Shown piece by piece: positions 1 to 62,412 of a DNA stretch of 64,000 bases. The stretch is from NCBI GenBank assembly GCA_943736015.1, contig OX031061.1:17803290-17867289 (forward strand), written 5' to 3'. The DNA is from Tridacna crocea. Lineage: Eukaryota; Mollusca; Bivalvia; Cardiida; Cardiidae. The position numbers and the translations under genes are program-made. The notes below the pieces were generated by a model. That model did no database searches and had not been told where the DNA came from. It saw only the letters and a list, made by a program, of their open reading frames with translations. Positions within the stretch are counted from its first letter, which is position 1. Each line of letters opens with the position of its first letter.

Positions 1-171
1 TGAGGGCTTTTGAAAACATCATAAGAAAAGGAGAAAATGCTGGTAACCAGCATTTTCTCCTTTTCCTATGACGTTTTTTTTACACATTCATCGAAAAGTT
101 CCAATAAATTTGTTGCCTAGTGATGCTTTGAATATAGACAATTACAAATGTGATCATCTGGTAAAGAGTTT
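1..171. repeat. TTAA-type palindromic-core MITE, left-truncated by the window
   Basis: The hairpin core (AGAAAATGCTGGTAACCAGC and its complement) lies at about 31-62 and is followed by the usual outer half, ending in 'ggtaaagagtt' near 171. The left end is outside the window. This is the first of some 30 full or partial copies; well-bounded copies are about 229 bp and end in TTAA on both sides. Confidence 0.75.
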
Positions 172-3822: not shown

Positions 3823-4045
3823 ATCCTTTACCAGACGGCAAAACTGGAGACTCGTCCAAATTGAGAGCATTTGCAGAGGACAAATTAAAAGTAGACTCAA
3901 AAATTGAAGCTTGACTTTAGAAGAGGAGAAAACATTGTGTGAAAAGGAGAAAATGCTGGTTACCAGCATTTTCTCCTTTTACCGCAATGTTTTCAAAAGT
4001 CATCTTTTCCAGGTTCATGAAATTAAGAAACAGTTTGGTAAAAGA
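3823..4045. repeat. TTAA-type palindromic-core MITE
   Basis: Starts 'ttaatcctttaccagacggc', carries the hairpin core at about 3,947-3,980, and decays at the right end. Confidence 0.7.
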
Positions 4046-4898: not shown

Positions 4899-5125
4899 TT
4901 AATTCTTTACTAAATGACAAATTATAGACTGGTTCAAATTCAAAGCAATTGCAGACAACAAAATACATGTGACTAAAGAATTGAGATTTGTTTTGGGAAG
5001 GGAAGAAAGCATTGTGGGAAAAGGAGAAAATGCTAATTACCAGCATTTTCTCTTTTTCCCACAGTGTTTTCAAAAGGCTTCTTTCAAAGGGGTGTTAAAA
5101 GTCGGGATTGTGTGATAAGGGTTAA
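4899..5125. repeat. TTAA-type palindromic-core MITE
   Basis: TTAA at 4,899 and again in 'gggttaa' at 5,122-5,125; core hairpin at about 5,022-5,055. Confidence 0.75.
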
Positions 5126-6640: not shown

Positions 6641-7835
6641 AGCAAAACTTCTACATTCATCAATGGATTTCTAAATAATTTTGCACAGATGTTCTCCCTA
6701 ACAAGTACTAGTGCCATGTGAAAAAGTTTATTTCGATATGCCCAAGGTCAAGGTCACAGTTGAAGGTCAAATGTTTAAATTGACCTTGTCTGGAGCATAA
6801 CTTCTACATTTATCAATGGATTTCAAGAAAACTTTGCACACTTGTTCTCCTTAACAAGTACTAGTGTCATGCGAAAAGTTTGTTTCGATTTGCCCAAGAT
6901 CAAGGTCACCGTGCATTAGTGTTTGTCCCATTCTTGTCCAGAACACAACTTCTACATGTATTGATGGATTTCAAAAAAAAAAAAACATTGCACAATTGTT
7001 CTGCTTAACAAGTACCAGTGTCATGCAAGAAGTTTGTTTCCATATGGCCAAGGTCAAGGTCACAGTTGAAGGCCAAATGTTTAAATTGACCTTGTCTGGA
7101 GCATAACCTCTACATTTATGAATGGATTTCTAAAAAAAAAAACTTTGCAGACTTGTTCTCCTTTACAAGTACCAGTGTCATGCAAAAAGTTAGTTTCAAT
7201 ATGCCCAAGGTCAAGGTCACAATGCGTTAGTATGTGTGTCCATTTCTTGTCCTGGCCCGCCCGGGTGGCTTAGTGGTGAGCATGTCAGACTCATGATCTG
7301 GTAGTTGTGAGTTCGATACCTGGTTGAGGCAAACTTTCTTTCTTTCTGGCGTATTTTCGCCTCTCACCTCTGCTGAAGCATGTGAGAAAAGTAGTCGGTG
7401 GCTTTTGAAAGAAAGTTGTGTTAGTACTGGTGTGAGAAAGTCAGGAAACACATGTGCATCACCGAACACCATGATATGACCTTAGCTGTTAAAGTGGCGT
7501 TAAACCCAATACAACCACCCAATTTTTTTCCGGAGCATAATTTCTATATTTATCATTTCTAAAATATTTTTGCACAATTGTTCTCTTTAACAAGTACTAG
7601 TGTCATGCGAAAAGTTTGTTTCAATATGCCCAAGGTCAAGGTCACAGTCGAAGGTCAAATGGTTAAATTTACCTTGTCTGGAGCGTAATTTCTACATTTA
7701 TCAATGTATTTCAAAAAAGAGCTTCGAACACTTGTTCTCCTTAACAAGTACTAGTGTCATGCAAAAAGTCTGTTTTCATACACCCAAGGTCAAGGTTGAA
7801 GGTAAAATGTTTAATTTGAGTATTCAACACATTTT
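6641..7835. repeat. Imperfect tandem array, units about 155 bp
   Basis: About six units share 'aaggtcaaggtcac', 'ttctacatttatcaatgg' and 'aacaagtactagtgtcatg'. The array is split by a SINE at 7,253-7,528. ORFs inside (6,864-7,106; 7,600-7,860) read through repeat units and are not genes. The same family appears once more, diverged, at about 46,080-46,330. Confidence 0.75.
7253..7528 (+). mobile_element. tRNA-Met-derived SINE
   Basis: The head is tRNA-like: an A-box-like TGGCTTAGTGG at about 7,266, an anticodon arm CAGA-CTCATGA-TCTG that places CAT in the loop as in elongator tRNA-Met, and a B-box-like GAGTTCGATACC near 7,309. About 200 bp of unrelated body follow, ending 'gcgttaaacccaatacaacc'. 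It sits cleanly inside a tandem-array unit, whose sequence resumes at 'ccggagcataatttct'. A functional tRNA is excluded because the acceptor stem is not closed. Confidence 0.75.
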
Positions 7836-8871: not shown

Positions 8872-10696
8872 CAAGAGGGCCAAGATGGCCCTGGATCGCT
8901 CACCTGAATTTCTGAGAGAACCATGGCCATTTCTTTTTTTTCAAAATCTGATCAGCCATTTTAGACGAGAAGAATTTTCAAGAATTTCTTCATGTCTGTA
9001 TAGTGTAAATAGCCCACAGTCATCAGAGCCATGTTTCTTGATGGATCAAAATTTCTCGAGCAATTTTTGTTCAGAGAAAAAGAATTTTAAAGACCAAATA
9101 GTGCAAGTAGCCCTCATTCACCAGATCCATGTTTCTAGACAAATCAGCATTTTGCGAACAATTTTTGAAAAGGGTTACTAAAGGAACATTTCTGTGAGAT
9201 TATATCAAAATCTGATCAGCCGTTTCAGAGAAGAATTTTAAAGAATTTCTTCATGGCCATTTAGTGCAAGAAGCCCCCATGAACTAGAGCCATATTGCTT
9301 GATGGATCAAAATTTCGCAAACACTTATTGAAAAGGGTCACCCAAGGAACATTTCTGTGAAATTATTTCGAAATCTGACTGGCAGTTTCTGAGATGAAGA
9401 ATTTTTAAGAATTTCTTCATTTCCCTATTGTGCAAGTAGCCCCCATTCACCAGAGCCATGTTTCTTGACGGATCAAAATTTCGCGAACAAATTTTGGAAA
9501 GGGTCATCAAAGGAACATTTCTGTGAAATTATTTCAAATTCTGACCAACAGTTTCAGAGAAGAAGAATTTTTAAGAATTTATTTCCGTATACATGTAGTT
9601 CAAGTAGCCCCCATTCACCAGAGCCATGTATATTGACGGATCAAAATTTCGCGAACAGTTTTTGAAAAGGGTCACCCAAAGAACATCTCTGTGAAATTAT
9701 TTCAAAATCTGACAGGCGGTTTCAGAGAAGAAGAATTTTTAAGAATTCCTTTATTTCTGTATAGCGCAAGTAGCCCCCGTTCACCAGAGCCACATTTTTG
9801 ACGGATCACAATTTCACGAACGGTTTTTGAAATGGGTCACACAAGGAACATATCTGTGAAATTATTTCAAAATCTGATCAGCGGTTTCAGAGGAGAAGAT
9901 TTTTAAAGAATTCCCTAGAAAATTCCATTTGGTTGCCATGGCAACCAGTGTTTTTGATGGAATCAAATTCTGTGAATAATTTTTAAAAAGGACGTCCCAA
10001 GGAACATTCCAGCCAAGTTTGGTCCAAATTGGCTCAGCAGTTTAGGAGGAGTTGATGTTTAAAGGTGAGTACATGTATTTAGAATTTTCACATCACACCA
10101 AATTTAAAAAAATATATATCATTGAAATTTATATGAAAAAACAATACAAATCATCAATAATTAAGAATCATAAAATTACAAAAAAAATTTTTTTTGATGG
10201 TATTCCCTTAAAAGGCTACGTAGCCTCTTATGGTATTTTTAGATTGTGCGCCAAAAATCAATAAAGCATTGTGGGAAGGTCAAGTGACTGTCACGTGACT
10301 AATAACGCTTAAATTCCATTACAGAACAAACATGTAATAATTATTCTCCGTAATGTCTTCTTCGGACTGATGTTTGAAACTTTGTCTGTGTTTTTCCTGT
10401 ATTTAAATGAGAGAATTGATAATCTAAGAATAGAACGTGTCTCCCCATGGTGTCAACCTGGTCCGTAATAAATCTCCAAATTCTCCTGTTTTCGGATGGT
10501 TTTCGGCTACTGGGGTTTTATGAACGCAAATTAAAAGGCTATCGGAGTATAGAGATGATCTTTTTGCATTTTTGTAAAATTTTCGTCCAAAAATCTGAAG
10601 GGCCACCTTTAAAGAATTGTTCACGACGCACTGACGCATGACGGACACCGGGTGATCCTAAAAACTCCCCTTGAGCACGTTGTGCTCAGGTGAGCT
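8872..10696 (-). mobile_element. AGCTCACC-family hairpin-ended element (1.8 kb)
   Basis: On the minus strand the element begins AGCTCACCTGAGCAC with a self-complementary head (about 10,665-10,696) and ends with the GGCC-type hairpin and CCTCTTG (8,872-8,900). Both flanks are A/T runs. The interior holds a tandem array of about 167-bp units (8,990-9,920; shared phrase 'ttcaccagagccatg') and a unique block at 10,170-10,625. That block recurs inverted at about 19,790-20,345 and in part at 34,895-35,035. No transposase is visible, so it is probably non-autonomous. Confidence 0.7.
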
Positions 10697-22893: not shown

Positions 22894-23789
22894 GTAAGCC
22901 ATACTTTATTGGTTGTATGGTCAGGTGGCAGGGGACTTGGAAACTTGTTCACGGCGGTGGTGAATCATGTCGCCCCGAGCCGAAACTTGTTTACGGCGAT
23001 GGTGAATCATGTCGAAGGCTCGGGGCGACATGATTCACCACCGCAGTGTACAAGTTTCCAAGTCACGGGTAGGAAACTTCATATTCAGAGCCAATGGCTC
23101 CGACGAGAAAGTGTTGTGTTGGTCTTCCGTTTCTGAAGATGTCGGCTGAAAAACAATCCCAAAACAGGTAGGCATGTCAATATTTGTTGTTATGTTTTCT
23201 TATGTCTTTGAATTTCAAAAAAAGGAGAATGTCTTTCGATGCTCTGGTCTTTCAACGTGTTTTCTGCATTATGGAAAGTTGGAATAGGTGTACTATGTTG
23301 TCTGAAGCATTTGTGGCATGGATTGACCGTAGCCAAAATAATACGTCTCGGAGATAAATTCAGTCTGTTATTACCATTTAATTGGCAAGTAAGAGAGAGT
23401 CTTACTGTCCCAAAGCCATGAACTAATGTCCTGAAATGTTACATTCACTACTGGTCAAAAATTGAAAAGAAAAGCACAAGAATTGATAAAAATAAAGAAG
23501 GGCTCTGATTATGTGGACCGGCTCTGACTATGTTACTCGTGACTGATTCAAGAGGGCTCCCTTTCAAAATTTTAGTTTTCTGTAAATAATTAGTCAGGAC
23601 GTAAATTTTGGTTTTCCATTAATATCTTTCTGTCCAAAATTTAGTGCATTTGTTGGATGGAACATGATTGCATGTATGAAAATACAAAGGACTGGTGTTG
23701 CCACGTTAGAAAAATGCTGTTTAACATTAGTCTATCTAAATTTTGAAAATACTTCTGCAGTGCTTTTGATTAGACCGAAAGGTCCATAT

Positions 23790-24317
23790 TGTTACGGGAG
23801 ACCACTCCTTCCTGCATGGCATACTCCCGATTTAAATACAATACCTGGCTACTGCGTCAGAGAGATATCTCTTTGGCTCAGTGGTTAGGGTATTGGCTTT
23901 GCGTCCGGGAGTTCGGAGTTCGAATCCCGCTCCGATCCTTATTTCTGCCATGCATTTATTCATTTGTTTCTTTGTTACGGACTTCGTTCGTAAGATGGGG
24001 GCTCGTCCGGGATTGGCCATTGAGCCATAAATCCCATTTGTTGTCCAAAATCGGACTTCCTGCCTAATAAGGCTTCGAGTCATCAATAAATGATGACTTT
24101 AAGAGGGGGTGTGTTACGGGAGACCACTCCTTCCTGCATGGCATACTCCCGATTTAAATACAATACCTGGCTACTGCGTCAGAGAGATATCTCTTTGGCT
24201 CAGTGGTTAGGGTATTGGCTTTGCGTCCGGGAGTTCGGAGTTCGAATCCCGCTCCGATCCTTATTTCTGCCATGCATTTATTCATTTGTTTCTTTGTTAC
24301 GGACTTCGTTCGTAAGA
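23790..24317 (+). mobile_element. 528-bp miniature LTR retrotransposon (TRIM-like) with tRNA-like LTRs
   Basis: Two 206-bp direct repeats (23,790-23,995 and 24,112-24,317), identical by eye, begin TGTTACGGG. The first is immediately followed by TGGGGGCTCGTCCGGGAT (23,996-24,013), the classical 18-nt primer binding site for tRNA-Pro. The second is preceded by a purine tract AAGAGGGGGTG (24,101-24,111). The internal region is only 116 bp and non-coding. ATAT flanks both sides (23,786-23,789; 24,318-24,321). Each LTR carries a tRNA-like block. The element lacks gag and pol and must have been mobilised in trans. Identical LTRs imply recent insertion. Confidence 0.88.
23868..23938 (+). promoter_or_regulatory. 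tRNA-like Pol III promoter block in 5' LTR (second copy 24,190-24,260)
   Basis: Contains an A-box-like TTGGCTCAGTGGTTAGGG and a B-box-like AGTTCGAATCC at tRNA spacing. A 9-bp inverted pair, TGCATGGCA (23,813-23,821) and TGCCATGCA (23,946-23,954), encloses it. The tRNA of origin is not clear because the anticodon arm does not pair well. Whether it is transcribed by Pol III is inferred from the boxes only. Confidence 0.65.
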
Positions 24318-26236
24318 ATATATAAAATTTTTCGTGCTTTTGTCGCAAATGCAGCCCACACATAAGCACAAATAATGAAACATATTTTCTTTTAGAAGTA
24401 CGAGAATGATAAACACAGCACGTGTTTCTAGATGCATAAATTTGCATTATGCAGTTTATGAACCATTATTCAGCCATCAACATAATTCTTTACATAGAAC
24501 TGAAACTTTGGAAACAAAATCATTGTTTTGCGAAACAATTTAAAAAGGTCACCTGTAAAAGTCATTTCGAAATCTGTCACCACATCAATGATTTTGATGA
24601 TTCAGAATTCTGCAAATAAACTTTGGATAGATCACCCAACAACAATTTCTTGCAGAAGAGCACATGCTCGAAAGTGACTAAAATCATGAGTCCAACGAGA
24701 GAACCACATGCAGGTACCAACAATATGATGTTGTTTTTCGACAGACTAAAAATTTCCAAAACGATTTTTGAAAAGGGTCAGCCTAGACATATCTGTGAAA
24801 TTATTTCAAAGTCTGACCAGCCATTCCAGAGAAGATTTTGTTTTAAATTTCTTCATGTACATACAGTGTTAATAGCCCACAGCCATCAGAGCTATGTTTC
24901 TTGATGGATCAAAATTTCTTGAACACTTTGCGAAAAGGGTCAACCAAGGAACATTTCTGTGAAAGTATTTCAAAATCTGACATGCCGTTCCAGAGAAGAA
25001 TTTTTAATAATTTCTTCATGGCCGTATAGTGCAAGTGGCCACCTGCACCCCAATCAGGGCCATGTTTCTAGACAGATAAATTTTCGCTCTTGCTCTTCTG
25101 CAAGAAATTGTTGTTGGGTGATCTATCCAAAGTTTATTTGCAGAATTCTGAATCATCAAAATCATTGATGTGGTGACAGATTTCGAAATGACTTTTACAG
25201 GTGACCTTTTTAAATTGTTGAAAAACAACATCATATTGTTGGTACCTGCATGTGGTTCTTTCGTTGGACTCATGATTTTAGTCACTTTCGAGCTTGTGCT
25301 CTTCTGCAAGAAATTGTTGTTGGGTGATCTATCCAAAGTTTATTTGCAGAATTCTGAATCATCAAAATCATTGATGTGGTGATGATAGTAGGAGACGGTG
25401 ACAGATTTCGAAATGACTTTTACAGGTGACCTTTTTAAATTGTTTTGCAAAATAATGATTTTGTTTCCAAAGTTTCAATTATATGTAAAGAATTATGTTG
25501 ATGGCTGAATGATGATTCATAAACTTCATAATGCAAATTCATGCATCTAGATCATTCAAACACGTGCTGTGTTTATCATTCTCGTACTTCTAAAAGAAAA
25601 TATTTTTCATTATTTGTGCTTATGTGTGGGCTGCATTTGCAACAAAAGCACGAAAAATTTTATATATGGACCATTCGGTATAATCAAAAGCTATGCAGAA
25701 GTATTTTCAAAATTTAGATAGACTAATGTTTAAACAGCATTTTTCTAACGTGGCAATACCAGTCCTTTGTATTTTCATACATGCAATCATGTTCCATCCA
25801 ACAAATGCACTAAATTTTGGACAGAAAGATATTAATGGAAAACCAAAATTTACGTCCTGACTAATTATTTACAGAAAACTAAAATTTTGAAAGGGAGCCC
25901 TCTTGAATCAGTGCCGAGTAACATAGTCAGAGCCGGTCCACATAATCAGAGCCCTTCTTTATTTTCATCAATTCTTGTGCTTTTCTTTTCAATTTTTGAC
26001 CAGTAGTGAATGTAACATTTCAGGACATTAGTTTACGGCTTTGGGACAGTAAGACTCTCTCTTACTTGCCAATTAAATGGTAATAACAGACTGAATTTAT
26101 CTCCGAGACGTATTATTTTGGCTACGGTCAATTCACGCCACAAATGATTCAGACAACATAGTACACCTATTCCAGCTTTCCATAGTGCAGAAAACACGTT
26201 GAAAAACCAGAGCATCGAATGACATTCTCCTTTTTT

Positions 26237-29200
26237 AGCTCACCTGAGCACGAAGTGCTCAGAGTGAGCTATTGTGATCACTCACCGTCCGTCGGCGTCC
26301 GTCGTCCGTCCGTCGTCCGTCCGTCCGTCGTCCGTCCGTCCGTCCGTCCGTCCGTCGTCCGTTCACATTTTCTTGTTTACACTCTAGCATCTACAAATAT
26401 CAACCAATCAGCACCAAACTTGGTCAAAGTGTGTATGACCATAAGATCTCGGATGAGTTCGATTATGGGTCAAATCGGACCAGAACATCTGGAGTTATTT
26501 GCCCTTGAATTAAGAAAATTGCTATATTTCACTTTGTTTACACTCTAGCATCTACAAATATCAACCAATTAGCACCAAACTTTTTCAAAATATATATGAC
26601 CATAAGATCTCGGATGAATTCGATTATGGGTCTAATCGGACCAGAATGACCGGAGTTATTTGCCCTTGAATTAAGAAAATTGCTATATTTGACTTTGTTT
26701 TCACTCTAGCATCTACAATTTTTAATCAATCGACACCAAACTTAGACAAAGTGAGTATGACCATAAGATCTCGGATGAGTTCGATTATGGGTCAAATCAG
26801 ACCAGAACATCTGGAGTTATTTGCCCTTGAATTTAGAAAATTGCTATATTTCACTTTGTTTACACTCTAGCATCTACAAATATCAACCAATTAGCACCAA
26901 ACTTTGTCAAAATATATATTACCATAAGATCTCGGATGAGTTTGATGATGGGTCTCATCGGACCAGAACGACCGGAGTTATTTGCCCTTGTATTAAGAAA
27001 ATTGCTATATTTGACTTTGTTTTCACTTTAGCATCTACAATTTTTAACGAATCGACACCAAACTTGGACAAAGTGTGTATGACCATAAGATCTCGGATGA
27101 GTTCGATTATGGGTCAAATCGGACCAGAACATTTGGAGTTATTTGCCCTTGAATTAAGAAAATTGCTATATTTCACTTTGTTTACACTCTAGCATCTACA
27201 AATATCAACCAATTAGCACCAAACTTTGTCAAAATATATATGACCATAAGATCTCGGATGAGTTCGATTATGGGGCTCATCGGACCAGAACGACCGGAGT
27301 TATTTGCCCTTGAATTAAGAAAATTGCTATGTTTGACTTTGTTTTCACTTTAGCATCTACAATTTTTAACCAATCGACACCAAACTTAGAAAAAGTGTGT
27401 ATGACCATAAGATTTCGGACGAGTGTGATTATGAGTCAAATCGGACCAGAACATCTGGAGTTATTTGCCCTTGAATTAAGAAAATTGCTATATTTCACTT
27501 TGTTTACACTCTAGCATCTACAAATATCAACCAATTAGCACCAAACTTTGTCAAAATATATATGATCATAAGATCTGGGATGAGTTTGATGATGGGTCTC
27601 ATCGGACCAGAACAACTGGAGTTATTTGCCCTTGAATTAGAAAAATCGCTATATTTGACTTTGTTTTCACTTTAGCATCTACAATTATTAACCAATCAAC
27701 ACCAGACTTGGACAAAATATACATGACCATAAGATCTCGGATGAGTTTGATTATTGGTGTATTCAGACCAGAACAACTGGAGTTATTTGCCCTTGAATTA
27801 AACAAATTGCTGTATTTCACTTTGTTTACACTCTAGCATCTACAAATATCAACCAATTAGTTCCAAACTTGGTCACAACATGTATGACTCTAAGATCTCA
27901 GATGAGTCCGATTATGGGTGACCAGAACAACGGGAGTTATTTGCCCTTGAATTAGAAAGTTTTTTTTTTAGAATAGTTCTTAGGCTGGAGCATAACTGTG
28001 ACAAATTTGTTAAGGGTTATTGTTCAGGGATAACAGATGTTGTGTACCTACCTGTATTCATGGTATAACCTTTACATAATGTTTGAATAAAACTCACTCT
28101 GTCATGCTTTTCTAACAATTTCTGCTATGTATATGATGTATATATAATTATGTCAAATGAGACATTGTAAGGCAGTAAGCTGTGAGCAGTTGTAGGGTGA
28201 AGACTCTGTAGTTTTGAAGCTTGGTCTTAGACCAGCTATGAGTTATCTGGCCTAACCATGAGTTTTGCTCCTCGCCTCTCTTATTGTGAAGTACAGTGTT
28301 GTTGATACATGTAGATGACAGAACTTACAAAAACACAACAGAACTAATGAAGAATGAAGTACTGTGAGCTAGCCTAAAACATTGCAACAGAGGGAAGTAA
28401 ATACTTCACTTATTTAGAACAAACGAACTGTAAACTGAATTGGCTCAGAGCAAACTTTACTGATAAATCCATTATTGGAAGAAAGGTTCTAATTACATTA
28501 AGGTAGATCTATGCTATTCTGCGGATTCCTTTGCCATATGTGACTAAAAGAATGTACCAGACTTTGAGAACTATTGACAGACAGTGATAAGGAACTTTTG
28601 TGCTAAATTGTGCTTTTGTTTTGTTTTATTTGTCAATGTCTCTGTTCTTTTCTGTTTGCTACTTCTTTGCGCTTTCTTTCTGCCTTTTGCTGTCTGCTAT
28701 CCTTCCGGTTAAGGTTTAATATTTGTTCTAATAAATTTTGTTTGTTCGCTTGTCGTCTTTTGGTCACGTTAGAAATAACTCACGTCTTTACAATAACTTT
28801 GTCATTTCCAGTCCAATTTACTTGAAACTTGGCATTTGTGTTTATTGCAATAAAACAGAGTGCAGTGTGAAAGAGCCATAACTCTACTTCATACTGTCTA
28901 TAAGTTAATTCCCTTTGATTGAAATTTTTACAGCATCTTCTGCTTGTCTGGAATATAACTTTGTCATCTACAGCCTGAACATCGTCAAATTTGATATGCA
29001 TGATTGTTGAAAAATTATGGAGTGCACTACACAAGAACCATAATTTCCTAGCACAAATTTTGAGTTATTCCCCCTTCATTTTTATAGCATTTCTTGCTTT
29101 GTCGGGAGCAAAACTTTGTCATCTTAAGGAGGAATGACTTGATATTTGGTATGCTTATTTGTTGCAATATTGGGAAGTGCAGTGCCTAAAAATTGTAACT

Positions 29201-47278: not shown

Positions 47279-48873
47279 AGCTCACCTTAGCACAAAGTGC
47301 TAAAGGTGAGCTATTGTGATCGCCATATGTATGTCGTCCTTCGTCCGTGAACAATTTCCTTAAACATCTTCTTCTCCTAAACCAGTGGGCCAATCTTGAT
47401 GGAACTTGGCAGGGATGTTCCTCGGGTAAAGCTCTACCAAAAATGTTCAAAGAATTGAATTCCACCTATAACTCTGGTTGCCGTGGCAACAAAAAGGAAA
47501 AGCATACAAAATTTTTGAAAATCTTCTCCTCTGAAATTAGAAGGCGTAGAGCTTTGATATTTAGCATGTGGCAACTCCTAGTGGAGTTCTACCAAGTGTG
47601 CTCAAATTATGTCCCTGGGGTCACAACTGGCCCCGGGGTCACAAATTTGAGCATCGGAGGAAAGAAGGAAAACTTTAAAAATCTTCTCTGATGAAAGTTG
47701 ATGGCGTAGAGCTTTGATATTTGATACGTAGCATCTCCTAGTTAGACCGCTACAACGTTTGTTCAAATGATGCCACTGGGGTCAAAACTTGCCCAGCCCC
47801 GGGGGTCACAAGTTTGAGCATCGGAACAAAGAAGGAAAACTTTAAATATCTTCTTCTCTGAAACTAAAAAGAGTAGAGCTTTGATACTTGGTCTTTGGCA
47901 TCTCCTAGTAGACCTTTACTTAGTTTGTTCAAATGATGCCCCCCTGGGATTAAAACTGGCCCAGCCCCGGGGGTCACAAGTTTGAGCATAGGAACAAAGA
48001 AGGAAAACTTTAAAAATGTTCTCTGAAACTAGATGGCGTAGAGCTTTGACATTTGGTATGTGGCATTTACCAGTGGACCTCTACCAAGTTTGTTCAAATG
48101 ATGCCCCTTGGGTTAAAACTGGCCCACCCCGGGGGACACAAGTTTGAGCAAAGGAACAAAGAAGGAAAACTTTATAAAATTTTCTCCTCTGAAACTTGAA
48201 GGTGTAGAACTTTGATATTTGGTATGTAGCATCTCCTAGTAGACCTCTACCAAGTTTGTTCACACGATGCCCTTTGGGTCAAAACTGGCTCCGCCCAGGG
48301 GTTACAAGTTCAAACATAGGAACAAAGAACGGAAAAAAATTAATATTCTTCTTCTCAAAAACTAAAAAGCATAGAGTTTTGACAATTGGTATGTAGCATC
48401 TCCTAGTGGATCTCTACCAAGTTTGTTCATATGATGCCCCTGAGGTCAAAACTGGCCAAGCCCCGGGGTCATAAGTTCGAAGACAGGAACAAAGAAGGAA
48501 ACTTTAAAAAAGTTCTCTGAAACTTGATGGTGTAGAGCTTTGATATTTGGTATGTAGCATCTTTTAGTGGACCTCTTCCAAGTTTGTTCATCTGATGCCC
48601 CTGGGGTCAAACCCAGGGGGTCAAATGTTCGAAAATAGGAACAATGAAAGAAAACTTCAAAATTCTTCTTCTCTAAAACTAGAAGGTGTAGACCTTTAAC
48701 TTTTGGCATGTAGCAATTCCTAGTGGACTTCTACCAAGTTTGTTCATATTATGCCCTTAGGGTCAAAACTGGCCCTGCCCCGGGGGTCACAGGTTCGTTT
48801 AAAGTTTATCACATAAACATAAGGGAAAAAGCTATTATCTCAGGTGAGCGCTCCAGAGCCATTGAACCTCTTG
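47279..48873 (+). mobile_element. AGCTCACC-family element, 1.6 kb
   Basis: Head AGCTCACCTTAGCACAAAGT with hairpin tail 'gctaaaggtgagct'; end 'caggtgagcgctccagagcc' through CCTCTTG. The interior is about eight diverged units of about 180 bp ('gtagagctttgatatttgg', 'caaaactggcc'). Minus-strand ORFs (48,081-48,263; 48,446-48,709) come from the array. Confidence 0.75.
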
Positions 48874-50241
48874 TTTATCGAGAAGTCATGTAATCATTAA
48901 CCCATTACAACATGATACCATCTTAAAATAATGATGCCAAGGAAGTGGGCTTTTGAAAACATTGTGGAAAGAAGACAAAAGGCTAGAAATAATAATTTTC
49001 ACCTTTAATTTAATAACACCATCTGTAAATTAATTCAGTCCAGATCTGTGTACATTTTTGAAAATTGGTAAAGAACCCTTTTCCCGAACAATTCCCGGTT
49101 TTAATGACCTAAGAAAAGACCCTTTGAAAACATTGTGTAATGTTTCTGACCATCACAAAGTAAATTTATATTTTTGAATCACAATGAATTTGTCGCCTGC
49201 AAAATGTTTCAAAGAAAGCAAGTCTAAAATTTTGTTGTTTGGTAAGGAATAAAGACTTTAACCTATTTGCACCATTCTGTTTCTAACGGGTAGTGTTGGA
49301 TCAGAATGTGTTGCAGTTTGATCATGTTCTATAAAATGTGATATCTCATTCCATAGAGCCTTTAGCAACAAGAAATATTGTGGAAAAAAAGTGAACAACA
49401 CAGTTTTGTCCTCACGGATGCTATTGTTAGTATTGTTTTGGCAAACAATATGGATCAAGATCAGCCTTCAATGGACAGGTGGTCCAAGCTGAGCTTGTCT
49501 ATTCAGTTTATAGATCAGTACACTCTATTTATAATTTCTAAATTCTTAAACAAATAATCCTCTGTTGTTTTAACAACCTTGACCAAAAAGTTTTTGAAAA
49601 CATTGTGGGAAAAGAAGAGAATGCTGAAAACGTTAGTAAGATCTAGTCTCACATCTGTAAGAATTTTCAATTTAACTCATTACCAAACGATAAAATTTTA
49701 GAATTATCCAGTTCGAAATCATTTGCAGATTACAGAAGAAAAATTACTGAAAAAAAAAAAAAAGAAATTTGTTCTGGGAATGGTAGAAAACATTGTGGGA
49801 AAAGGAGAAAATGCTGGTTACCAGCATTTTTTCCTTTTCCCACAATGTTTTCAAAAGGCTTCCTTCTCAGGGTCGTCAAAAGTAGGGATTGTGTGGTAAA
49901 GGATTAAACAAGTCTAAAAATTTGCCGTTTTTGTAAATATTTATAATGCATATGTTTATTTCTTCATACTTTTGAGACAATGACACAGTATAATGTTACT
50001 GATGGTTTATAACACAACGCATATAACTCCTAAATGTTTTTGACGTTATAAGCTATAACCGTGCAGGTCTGCTTCATGCTTCCACACTTGAATGTACTTT
50101 CAACTTAAGCAAGTCTGAAATTTTGCCAATTTGGTAAATATTCAAAATACATATGTTTATTTTTTCATATTTTTCAGACATGACACAGCTTCATGTACCA
50201 TTCTTTAACACAACGTAGACATAAAATTCCTAAGTGTTTTT
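48874..50241 (+). other. Unit 2 intron block, first copy of an internal duplication
   Basis: Corresponds to unit 1 at about 37,205-38,125. Contains a decayed version of the 37,625 ORF (acceptor changed to 'ctaacggg') and a MITE at 49,672-49,907 that unit 1 lacks. About 150 bp ('aagtctgaaattttgcc') is repeated at 49,910 and 50,110. Confidence 0.6.
49672..49907. repeat. TTAA-type MITE inserted in unit 2
   Basis: TTAA at 49,672-49,675 and 49,904-49,907; core with a single change (TTTTTTCC). Not present at the matching site of unit 1. Confidence 0.8.
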
Positions 50242-52154
50242 AGCTCACCTTAGCACAAAGTGCAAGAGGTGAGCTTTTGTGATCGCCCAATATCCCGCCG
50301 TCAACAATTTCTTTAAACATCTTTTCCTCCTAAACCACTGGGCCAATCTTCATGAAACTTGGCAGGAATGTTCCTTTGTTCAAAGAATTCAATTCCACCC
50401 ATAACTCTGGTTGCCATAGCAACAAAACGAAAAAAATAAAACCCCCGAAATTTCTGAAAATCTTCTCCTCTGAAACTAGCAGGGGTAGAGCTTTGATATT
50501 TGGTGTGTAGCATCTCCCAATGGACCTCTACCAAGTTTGTTCAAATTATGCCCCTAGGGTCAAAACTGGCCCCGCCCCGGGGGATAACGCGTTTTAGCGC
50601 GTTTGAGCATAGGAACAAAGAAGGAAAACTTTAAAAATCTTCTCCTCTGAAACCTGAAGGGGTAGAGCTTTGATATCTGGTATGTAGCATCTCCTAGTGG
50701 ACCTTTACCAAGTTTGTTCAAATTATGTCCCTGGGGTCAAAACTGGCCCCACCCCAGGGGTCACAAGTTTGAGCATAGGAACAAAGATGGAAAAGTTTAA
50801 AAATCTTCTCTTCTGAAACTTGAAGGCGTAGAGCTTTGATATTTAGTATGTGACATCTCCTAGTAGACCTCTACCAATTTTGTTCAAATTATGCCCCTGG
50901 GGTCAAAACTGGCCCCACCCCGGGGGTCACAAATTTGAGCATTGGAACAAAGAAGGAAAACTTTAGAAATCTTCTCCTCTGAAACTTGAAGGCTTAGGGC
51001 TTTGATATTTAATATGTGGCATCTCCTAGTGGACCTCTACCAAGTTTATTCAAATTATGTCCCTGGGGTCAAAACTGGCCCTACCCCGGGGATCAAAAAT
51101 TTGAGCATAGGAACAAAGAAGGAAAACTTTAAAATTCTTTTCCTCAGAAACTAGAAAGCATAGAGCTTTGATATTTGGTCTGTTTTTTATCTCCTAGTGG
51201 ACCTCTACCAAGTTTATTCAAATAATGTTCCTAGGGTCAAATCCGGCCCCACCCCGGGGGTCACTAGTTTGAGCATAGGAACAAAGAAGGAAAACTTTAA
51301 ATTTCTTCTTCTCTTTAAATAGATGGCATAGAGCTTTGATATTTGGTATGTGGCATCTCCTAGTGGACGTCTACCAAGTTTGTTCAAATCCTGCCCGTGG
51401 GGTCACAAGTTCGAACATAGGAACAATGAAAGAAAATTTTAAGATTCTTCTTTTCTATAACTAGAAGGCATAGAGCTATGATATTTGGCATGTAGCAACT
51501 CCTAGTGGATCTCTACCAAGTTTGTTCATATTGTGCCTTTGGGGTAAAAACTGGCCCTGCCTCGGGAGGAAAACTTTAGAAATCTTCTCTGAAACTTGAA
51601 GGTGCAGAGCTTTGATATTTGGTATGCAGAATCTTCTAGTGGACCTCTACCAAGTTTGGCCATATGATGTCCCTGGCGTTTAAACCGGCCCTACCCCGGA
51701 GGTCACAGGTTGGAACATAGGAACATAGGAACAAAGAAGGAAAATTTTAAATTTCTTTTTCTCTCAAACGGGAAGATGTAGAGCCTTGATACTTGGTATG
51801 TAGCATCTTTGAGTGGACCTCTAGCAAGTTTGTTCCAAGGATGCTGCTTTGGTTAAAACTGATCCAGCCCCAGGGACCACAAGTTCGAACATAGGACAAA
51901 AAAGGAAAATGTAAAATTCTTCTTTGAAACTGGAAGGTGTAGAGCTTTATGATATTTGATTGCCCTATGTCCGGCGTCTGTCGCCCGTCAACAATTTCTT
52001 TAAACATCTTCTTCTCCTAACCCAGTGGGCCAATCTTGATGCAACTTGGTAGGGATGTTCCTTGGGTGAAGCTTTACCAAAGTTGCTCAAAGAATTGATA
52101 TTTCACTCATAAGCTATAGTCTAAGGTGAGCGTTCCAGGGCAATGTCCATCTTG
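50242..52154 (+). mobile_element. AGCTCACC-family element, 1.9 kb
   Basis: Inserted in 'aagtgttttt|ttgaaatt', with uninterrupted versions at about 38,121 and 53,449. About ten units of about 180 bp. At 51,957-52,085 the head sequence ('gccctatgtccggcgtctgt') occurs a second time, so two elements have recombined. The ending is CATCTTG instead of CCTCTTG. Confidence 0.75.
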
Positions 52155-61199: not shown

Positions 61200-62275
61200 A
61201 GCTCACCTTAGCACAAAGTGCTAAAGGTGAGCTATTGTGATCGCCCTATGTCCGGCGTCCGTCGTCCGTCAACAATTTCTTTAAACATCTTCTCCTCCTA
61301 AACCAATGGGCCAATCTTCATGAAACTTGGCAGGAATGTTCCTTGGGTGAAGCTCTACCAAAATTGTTCAAAAAATTTAATTCCACCCATAACTCTGGTT
61401 GCCATGGCAACAAAAATAAAAAAACCCGAAATCTTGGAAAATCTTCATCTCTGAAACTTGAAGGCGTAAAGCTTTGATATTTGGTACGTAGCATCTCCTA
61501 ATAGATGTCTACCAAGTTTGTTCAAATTATGTCCCTAGGGTCAAAACTGGGCCCACCCCGGAGGATAACTAGTTTGAGCATAGGAACAAGGAAGGAAAAA
61601 CTTTAAAAATCTTCTCCTCTGAAACTTGAAGGCGTAGAGCTTTGATATGTAGTATGTAGTATCTCCTAATGGATCTCTACCAAGTTTGTTCAAATTATGC
61701 CCCTAGGGTCAAAATTGGCCCCACCCCGGGGGATAACAAGTTTGAGCATAGGAACAAAGAAGAAAAAACTTTAAAAATCTTCTCCTCTGAAACTTGAAGG
61801 CGTAGAGCTTTGATATTTGGTATGTGACATCTCCTAGTTTGTTCAAATTATGCCCTTGGGGTCAAAACTGGCTCCACCCCGGGGGTCACAAGTTTGAACA
61901 TAGGAACAAAGAAAGAAAGTTTTAAAATTCTTCAACTCTAAAACTAGAAGGCATAGAACTATGATATTTGGCATGTAGCAATTCCTAGTAGATCTCCACC
62001 AAGTTTGTTCATATTATGCCCTTGGGGTCAAAACTGACCCTGCCCCGGGGGGTCACAGGTTCGAACATAGCAACAAAGAAGGAAAACTTTAGAAATCTTC
62101 TCTGAAACTTTGATATTTGGTATGCAGAATCTTCTAGTGGACCTCTACCAAGTTTGGTCATATGATGTCCCTGGCTTCAAAACTGGCCATGCCCCGGAGG
62201 TCACAGGTTGGAACATAGGAACAAAGAAGGAAAATTTTAAATTTCTTTTTCTCTTGAACGGGAAGGTGTAGATGT
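61200..62275 (+). mobile_element. AGCTCACC-family element, 3'-truncated
   Basis: Complete head hairpin at 61,200-61,232, GTCCG tract, then about six units of about 180 bp. It stops within a unit at about 62,275 without the CCTCTTG end. Confidence 0.7.
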
Positions 62276-62412
62276 ATTAATGTATTATATGTCTTAAATT
62301 ACACTGAAACGAACTTCTAAACGGCCACTTTTAAGCCGTAATTTCCCATAGACCTTTTCTCGAGTCCGCTGCCTTTACAAGGGACAGCTTATTTGGTTTC
62401 ATTTTTTGCAGA

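Follow-up and report, generated by a model that had tools for sequence, protein, structure and literature searches.

A 528-bp repeat at 23790-24317 (+ strand) in a 64,000-nucleotide stretch of the Tridacna crocea genome (contig OX031061.1; hereafter the window) raises the question of what kind of element carries the replication signals of an LTR retrotransposon together with a tRNA-like promoter block. An earlier note on this DNA took it for a new animal counterpart of the plant Cassandra elements. That claim fails, since elements of this kind, the Helenus class, had already been described (Kojima 2024, PMC10886601). We assign the locus to a Helenus-type family of miniature LTR retrotransposons (TRIMs), new or already catalogued, on the basis of its features.

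Structure and insertion site of the element

The element has the order LTR, primer binding site (PBS), interior, polypurine tract (PPT), LTR. Its two LTRs (23790-23995 and 24112-24317, + strand) are 206 bp long, run from TGTTACGGG to TTCGTAAGA and are identical. The 116-bp interior between them (23996-24111) has no coding capacity that we could see: no stop-to-stop open reading frame (ORF) of at least 130 amino acids in the window overlaps it, and a single AATAAA occurs at 24085. The PBS (23996-24014) abuts the 5' LTR, and its 19 nt, the usual 18 plus one, are the reverse complement of the host tRNA-Pro(AGG) with CCA, the reference being three host genes (L102, L104, L109) to which CCA was added. 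This match supports mature tRNA-Pro as the likely primer of minus-strand synthesis. At the far end of the interior, a putative PPT (24101-24111) consists of AAGAGGGGG (24101-24109) followed by TG, and the TG separating the purines from the 3' LTR probably represents two bases lost before integration. The alignment, the ORF check and the host tRNA genes thus bear out what the earlier note had described, namely 528 bp in all with identical 206-bp LTRs around a non-coding 116-bp interior, a purine tract before the 3' LTR, and a perfect 18-nt tRNA-Pro-type PBS abutting the 5' LTR.

The window also contains a large imperfect inverted repeat, the arms of which (23218-23724 and 25730-26236) are 97% alike over 507 bp and enclose about 2 kb, with more paired stretches inward; the whole (23218-26236) is possibly a foldback or Helitron-like element. 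The TRIM is present in the left arm and missing from the other. When 23601-24600 was aligned to 25351-25900 in reverse complement, a clean 528-bp insertion appeared, in which GGTCC-ATAT-ATAAAA of the empty arm corresponds to GGTCC-ATAT-[element]-ATAT-ATAAAA in the filled arm. This alignment fixes the ends of the element at TGTTACGGG and TTCGTAAGA and demonstrates a 4-bp target duplication, with ATAT at 23786-23789 and 24318-24321 (+ strand) and a single ATAT at the empty site (25664-25667, - strand).

Copies in the host genome

The 1.049-Gb host assembly was searched for further copies. At least 42 matches span all 528 bp with 99-100% identity, a lower bound obtained by scoring 40 of 946 candidates. 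A pattern spanning the LTR-PBS edge gave 1,970 matches, while its reversed control gave none, so that the PBS is not peculiar to the window copy; another, built on the beginning of the tRNA-like block, gave 4,155, about two per element. Outside the host genome, the phages, viral_contigs and genome_contigs collections yielded no matches; the query for the last of them was a related pattern taken from a diverged copy.

Of 30 near-identical loci (the best-scoring of the 42 full-length matches), 28 lie between perfect 4-bp duplications, and the remaining two are overlapping windows on one array. As a measure of chance agreement, flanks taken from different copies agreed over 4 bp in 7 of 870 pairings. 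A second sample came from contig C1, where the first 60 LTR-PBS matches listed gave 55 grouped places; the first 40 of these were used. Ten of these loci lack two full LTRs and were left out of the count; a perfect 4-bp duplication was present at 26 of the 30 copies with two or more full LTRs. The other four are two arrays cut by the locus edge (L076, L093) and two misses (L065, L096). The loci examined are mostly scattered LTR pairs about 322 bp apart; some form arrays of the type LTR-interior-LTR-interior-LTR, and two of these (L079, L080) retain the duplication at their outer ends. None of the outcomes that the earlier note named as contradicting it was observed: the family proved neither confined to tandem arrays nor devoid of target duplications, and its PBS is not unique to one copy.

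Several copies carry the same change in both LTRs, at element positions 72 and 394 (L009, L021, L025, L026, L027), 6 and 328 (L018) or 34 and 356 (L022); four others (L014, L016, L017, L024) are altered at 72 or 394 in one LTR only. Among 24 of the 26 C1 elements with duplications, the two LTRs of one element diverge by 1.1% on average, compared with 2.7% between elements, and 11 pairs are identical. The shared changes and the lower divergence within elements fit the copying of both LTRs from one template, as well as recent activity.

The tRNA-like block and the occasional LTR-interior arrays would suit a SINE or a tandem satellite unit mistaken for an LTR element. This reading is extremely improbable in view of the fixed 528-bp insertion with its 4-bp duplication and empty site, the PBS and PPT at the ends of the interior, and the scattered pairs about 322 bp apart. 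Readings as a SINE within the LTR, or as a satellite, were rejected on the empty site and the duplications. Transfer-RNA-derived SINEs share the tRNA-like head with its A and B boxes, but they depend on non-LTR machinery and have a 3' tail (according to the available text of PMC10886601), whereas the present unit has LTRs, a PBS, a PPT and 4-bp duplications.

Relation to known TRIMs

Helenus elements, for which the class TRIMp3 has been proposed, are TRIMs with tRNA-like LTRs, reported from fungi, plants and six animal phyla (Kojima 2024, PMC10886601; available text). The same text lists 51 bivalve families, in Pteriomorphia, with tRNA-Pro among the bivalve primers, and gives 4-bp target duplications for the animal elements. 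Our element agrees in being short and non-coding, with two LTRs in 528 bp against an upper size of about 1,000 bp, in the A/B-box sequence within both LTRs, in a PBS adjoining the 5' LTR and a PPT, and in 4-bp duplications. It further resembles Helenus in the tRNA-Pro primer known from bivalve families, in an inferred Gypsy partner and in LTRs unlike those of that partner. In the defining features tested, no difference was found. Besides Kojima (2024), a literature listing on these elements showed one other paper, a meeting report.

Two other systems were considered and rejected. Cassandra of plants is likewise a TRIM with the promoter of a small-RNA gene in its LTRs, but these carry 5S rRNA sequence (PMC10853983 and PMC10886601, as far as their available text goes), whereas Rfam scans found no 5S rRNA match in our element. 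The biv-TRIM of bivalves (Satovic et al. 2019, PMC6934838) has LTRs of 202-218 bp and occurs in solo and tandem forms. It differs, in the portion of that paper available, by an interior of 77-80 bp, a PPT that is mostly GGGGAGA and the report of no PBS, whereas the present element has a 116-bp interior and a perfect PBS.

The tRNA-like block and its likely polymerase

Each LTR contains an A box TGGCTCAGTGG at LTR nt 85 (23874-23884 and 24196-24206), matching at 11 of 11 positions, and a B box AGTTCGAATCC at nt 128 (23917-23927 and 24239-24249), matching at 10 of 11. Among 2000 dinucleotide-shuffled LTRs none reached the combined score, which occurred in 2 of 1224 tests on other 206-bp pieces of the window (both strands); this confirms the A-box/B-box block recorded in the earlier note. 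The B-box motif of the window copy, AGTTC, differs by one base from the GGTTC of three relatives (L043, L056, L058), whose B box is GGTTCGAATCC. Of 15 diverged TRIM loci, 11 retain recognisable forms of both boxes, as judged by eye, with a stretch between them that varies in length and sequence; the best of these (L043, L058) match at 11 of 11 positions in each box. No good pair was seen in L045, L048 and L057, and the B box of L062 matches at 7 of 11.

No tRNA fold is evident in the window copy. The Rfam tRNA model gave no match to the block of the window copy even at an E value of 10, and a cloverleaf tRNA gene was rejected on this ground. ARAGORN called tRNA-Thr in the diverged copies L043 and L058, Ala in L031 and, with a loose threshold, Asn in the window LTR. 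Seven bivalve Helenus families carry a tRNA-Thr-type block (Kojima 2024, PMC10886601; available text).

These features suggest that the block drives transcription by RNA polymerase III (Pol III), which we favour. Pol II remains a candidate, because a TATA-like TTTAAATA at LTR nt 42 (23831-23838; 24153-24160 in the 3' LTR) lies at a fitting distance, 30 nt upstream, and would place the start at about nt 72, where the palindromic copies described below also put it. An ordinary Pol II TRIM, with its start directed by this TATA-like sequence and the tRNA-like block carried as a passenger from past SINE or tRNA capture, perhaps with a role in RNA structure, is an alternative that we consider unlikely. 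It gains from the four of 15 diverged loci that lack one or both boxes, from the failure of the window block to match the Rfam tRNA model, and from the modest excess of conservation at the boxes in 12 diverged LTRs (0.86-0.88, compared with 0.79 elsewhere; permutation p about 0.1, block test 0.08). It does not sit well with matches of 11/11 and 10/11 at tRNA-like spacing, or with the persistence of the boxes in 11 of 15 diverged loci though the stretch between them changes. The terminators and polyadenylation signals also bear on this question. TTTT is the usual terminator of Pol III. The + strand of the element contains no TTTT, a state shared by 1.8% of shuffles of the LTR-interior unit, and 28 of 30 C1 copies lack it as well. 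AAAA shows no comparable depletion on that strand. No AATAAA or ATTAAA was found in the LTR. Both the depletion of TTTT and the lack of these signals in the LTR argue against the Pol II alternative and leave Pol III transcription as the preferred reading. Pol III transcription of Helenus is likewise presented as unvalidated in the available text of Kojima (2024, PMC10886601).

A candidate Ty3/Gypsy partner

Among 30 hits examined, out of 53 from a genome search, nine share the PBS of the TRIM and are either Gypsy-like or similar to such copies. The Gypsy-like copies L037, L039, L041, L049, L052 and L053 share this tRNA-Pro PBS, and two of them (L039, L041) match tRNA-Pro beyond the usual 18 nt (GGGATTTGAA). 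Two further loci (L111, L112) are Gypsy-like copies of the L037 type. Traces of coding sequence accompany this PBS: an open stretch of 458 aa in L053 gives a SCAN (gag) match above the cut-off (E 9.8e-12) and weak zinc-knuckle matches, and L051 has a piece of reverse transcriptase (RVT_1, E 2.2e-13) downstream of the PBS.

The LTRs of the L037 type read TGTTATG...CGTAACA, with GAAAT before the PBS, and those of the TRIM TGTTACG...CGTAAGA, directly at the PBS. From the PBS and these few bases at the LTR ends, we infer that a Ty3/Gypsy element may supply reverse transcriptase and integrase to the TRIM. In the 570 nt upstream of the PBS at the nine Gypsy-like loci, no good A/B pair was found, and the B box scored 7-8 of 11. 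This agrees with the view of Kojima (2024, PMC10886601; available text) that Gypsy elements move animal Helenus without sharing their LTR promoter.

Palindromic copies centred before the A box

The first 100 loci, which were chosen regardless of palindromes, included three head-to-head LTR pairs (L061, L046, L044) with one centre. In each, the left LTR is replaced by the reverse complement of LTR nt 78-206 joined to LTR nt 78-206, with arms that agree at 124 of 129 positions in L061 and at all 129 in L046 and L044. A pattern across the joint of this palindrome, whose centre lies 7 nt upstream of the A box, then matched 39 places in the genome; the pattern itself fixes the centre, so that this count says nothing about other centres. 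Nine of the 39 were examined, the three already met and six picked by the pattern.

Four of the nine (L113, L114, L115, L117) consist of a palindrome alone, 245-259 bp long and ending in U5 on either side. Their flanks read AGAC/AGAC, GATT/AATT, ATCG/ATCG and CTGG/CCGG, respectively. In L061, L046 and L118 the palindrome continues through the PBS, the interior and the 3' LTR, and both sides carry TTTT, CAAG and CTGG, respectively; the TTTT of L061 is a weak duplication, its last LTR base being taken as a substitution to G. The chimera L044 is flanked by AAAG on both sides. In L116, 18 nt from the start of the PBS follow the palindrome, and there is no target duplication. In sum, six of the nine have perfect 4-bp duplications, two have one mismatch and one has none.

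The common centre falls at LTR nt 77.5 within GAGATATCTC, 7 nt before the A box. In the window copy it is the centre of a 12-nt palindrome, AGAGATATCTCT (23861-23872; 24183-24194 in the 3' LTR), the 10-nt core of which is GAGATATCTC in copies with 72G. The LTR holds no other perfect palindrome of at least 10 nt. The presence of one means little by itself, because about 15% of shuffled LTRs contain a 10-nt palindrome. Around the same centre, nt 50-106 of the ordinary LTR (23839-23895 in the window) form an imperfect palindrome with 76% self-match, which overlaps the A box. An antisense LTR match in L056 was not counted, being probably this imperfect palindrome of the LTR itself.

Self-priming of strong-stop DNA is known from retroviral work. 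The four stand-alone palindromes fit integrated minus-strand strong-stop DNA that primed itself, and the palindrome at 23861-23872 would then mark the RNA 5' end, with a start 8-13 nt before the A box (LTR nt 72-77). Such a start is expected for a tRNA-type promoter, and it fits the TATA-like box as well. The step from self-primed strong-stop DNA to genomic insertions is our extrapolation from these copies. That the genome holds recurrent integrated intermediates of reverse transcription, as U5-R/R-U5 palindromes of about 258 bp self-primed at GAGATATCTC and flanked by 4-bp duplications, seems to us evenly poised between right and wrong. In a literature search judged by titles and the beginnings of abstracts, we found no paper on palindromic strong-stop insertions.

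The imperfect palindrome at nt 50-106, with its 76% self-match and identical centre, could instead make the site prone to rearrangement, so that DNA-level events (hairpin repair, or inversion within this palindrome) would yield the derivatives. The frequency of palindromes in shuffled LTRs leaves room for such an origin, and the two arms of a derivative are not consistently each other's closest relatives, which can be put down to the close likeness of all the LTRs. We nevertheless judge it rather improbable. All nine palindromes end at the U5 tip or run on into the PBS, of which L116 carries 18 nt; six have perfect 4-bp duplications at their ends, which the stand-alone palindromes would not have gained from an inversion in a finished element. 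Self-primed strong-stop DNA is the origin that we prefer for these copies.

Possible tRNA read-through copies

Two copies pass from primer-matching sequence into antisense LTR. In L038, 39 nt after the 5' LTR are identical to the complement of tRNA-Pro with CCA, reaching beside G37, and are followed by antisense LTR nt 113-57. The switch lies within a shared CGCA, which leaves the place of the junction uncertain by about 4 nt, and no target duplication was found. L044 leaves the PBS at tRNA position 58 and passes, over CGGGATT, into antisense LTR that extends from the B box as far as nt 1. Two further supposed chimeras of the L044 type (C14, C16) proved on inspection to be Gypsy copies.

Modified bases are known to stop reverse transcription within primer tRNAs: m1A58 is the main stop of plus-strand synthesis, and the modified position 37 of tRNA-Lys3 is a minor one (a 2026 review, PMC13191261, available text). 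The same source places m1G37 in tRNAs that read C-initial codons other than CAN, and mentions tRNA-Pro of E. coli. The end points of L116 (18 nt), L044 (position 58) and L038 (position 37), single copies each, are suggestive of stops at modified bases. Likewise suggestive, the letters shared at the switches in L038 and L044 may be supplied by the likeness of the LTR to a tRNA. That L038 was copied to LTR nt 57 is at odds with an RNA template starting at nt 72-77, unless the template was DNA.

Proposed replication cycle

The account that we consider probable is a Helenus-type non-autonomous LTR retrotransposon (TRIM) with occasional self-priming of strong-stop DNA. Directed by the A and B boxes, Pol III would start at about LTR nt 72-77, and the transcript would run through the PBS, interior, PPT and 3' LTR to a T-run in the flank. 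Mature tRNA-Pro, as the PBS match supports, would prime the minus strand, and strong-stop DNA would end at LTR nt 72-77, as the palindromic copies suggest, before transferring to the 3' LTR; the PPT would then prime the plus strand. A Ty3/Gypsy element that shares the tRNA-Pro PBS and resembles the TRIM at the LTR tips would supply reverse transcriptase and integrase. The product is found at scattered sites with 4-bp duplications. From time to time, the strong-stop end, self-complementary at GAGATATCTC, would prime synthesis on its own strand or on another such molecule, giving a palindrome with two U5 ends that integrase may accept for insertion.

The element adds one more genome, together with an empty site, to the class with a tRNA-type promoter described in 2024. 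In the available text of Kojima (2024, PMC10886601), we found no empty site, palindromic derivatives or tRNA-Pro read-through copies. Reverse transcription may have left a fossil record in the aberrant copies. If so, the position of the RNA start, the identity of the primer and the modified bases within it could be read off palindromes and read-through copies in genome sequence alone, also for elements that cannot be grown, and the RNA start of TRIMp3 elements would become testable by genomics. The palindromes would also constitute new foldback elements with the look of MITEs and may be mis-annotated as such elsewhere. The tRNA-likeness of the LTR may offer a homologous landing place to a polymerase stalled in the primer tRNA, as in L044 and L038, and such landing is a possible route by which these elements renew their tRNA-like sequence.

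Other features of the window and genome

A MITE-like, 70-nt near-palindrome has 28 copies in the window (8-77, 3924-3993, 5001-5070 and 25 more). Several of them match mir-9457 below the Rfam cut-off, some on both strands, and the TRIM-derived copies L020 and L117 are apparently inserted in copies of this repeat. Tandem arrays with periods of 161 bp and about 166 bp occupy 26373-27960, 47496-51967, 61406-62291 and 9095-10070; we take them to fall in the length class of the bivalve BIV160/pearl repeats. ARAGORN predicts a tRNA-Met (cat) at 7259-7331. Elsewhere in the host assembly, contig C31 (G000), near 27 kb, carries a COX1 match at 26516-27850 with three TGA codons within the matched frame, and this contig is probably a large mitochondrial genome.
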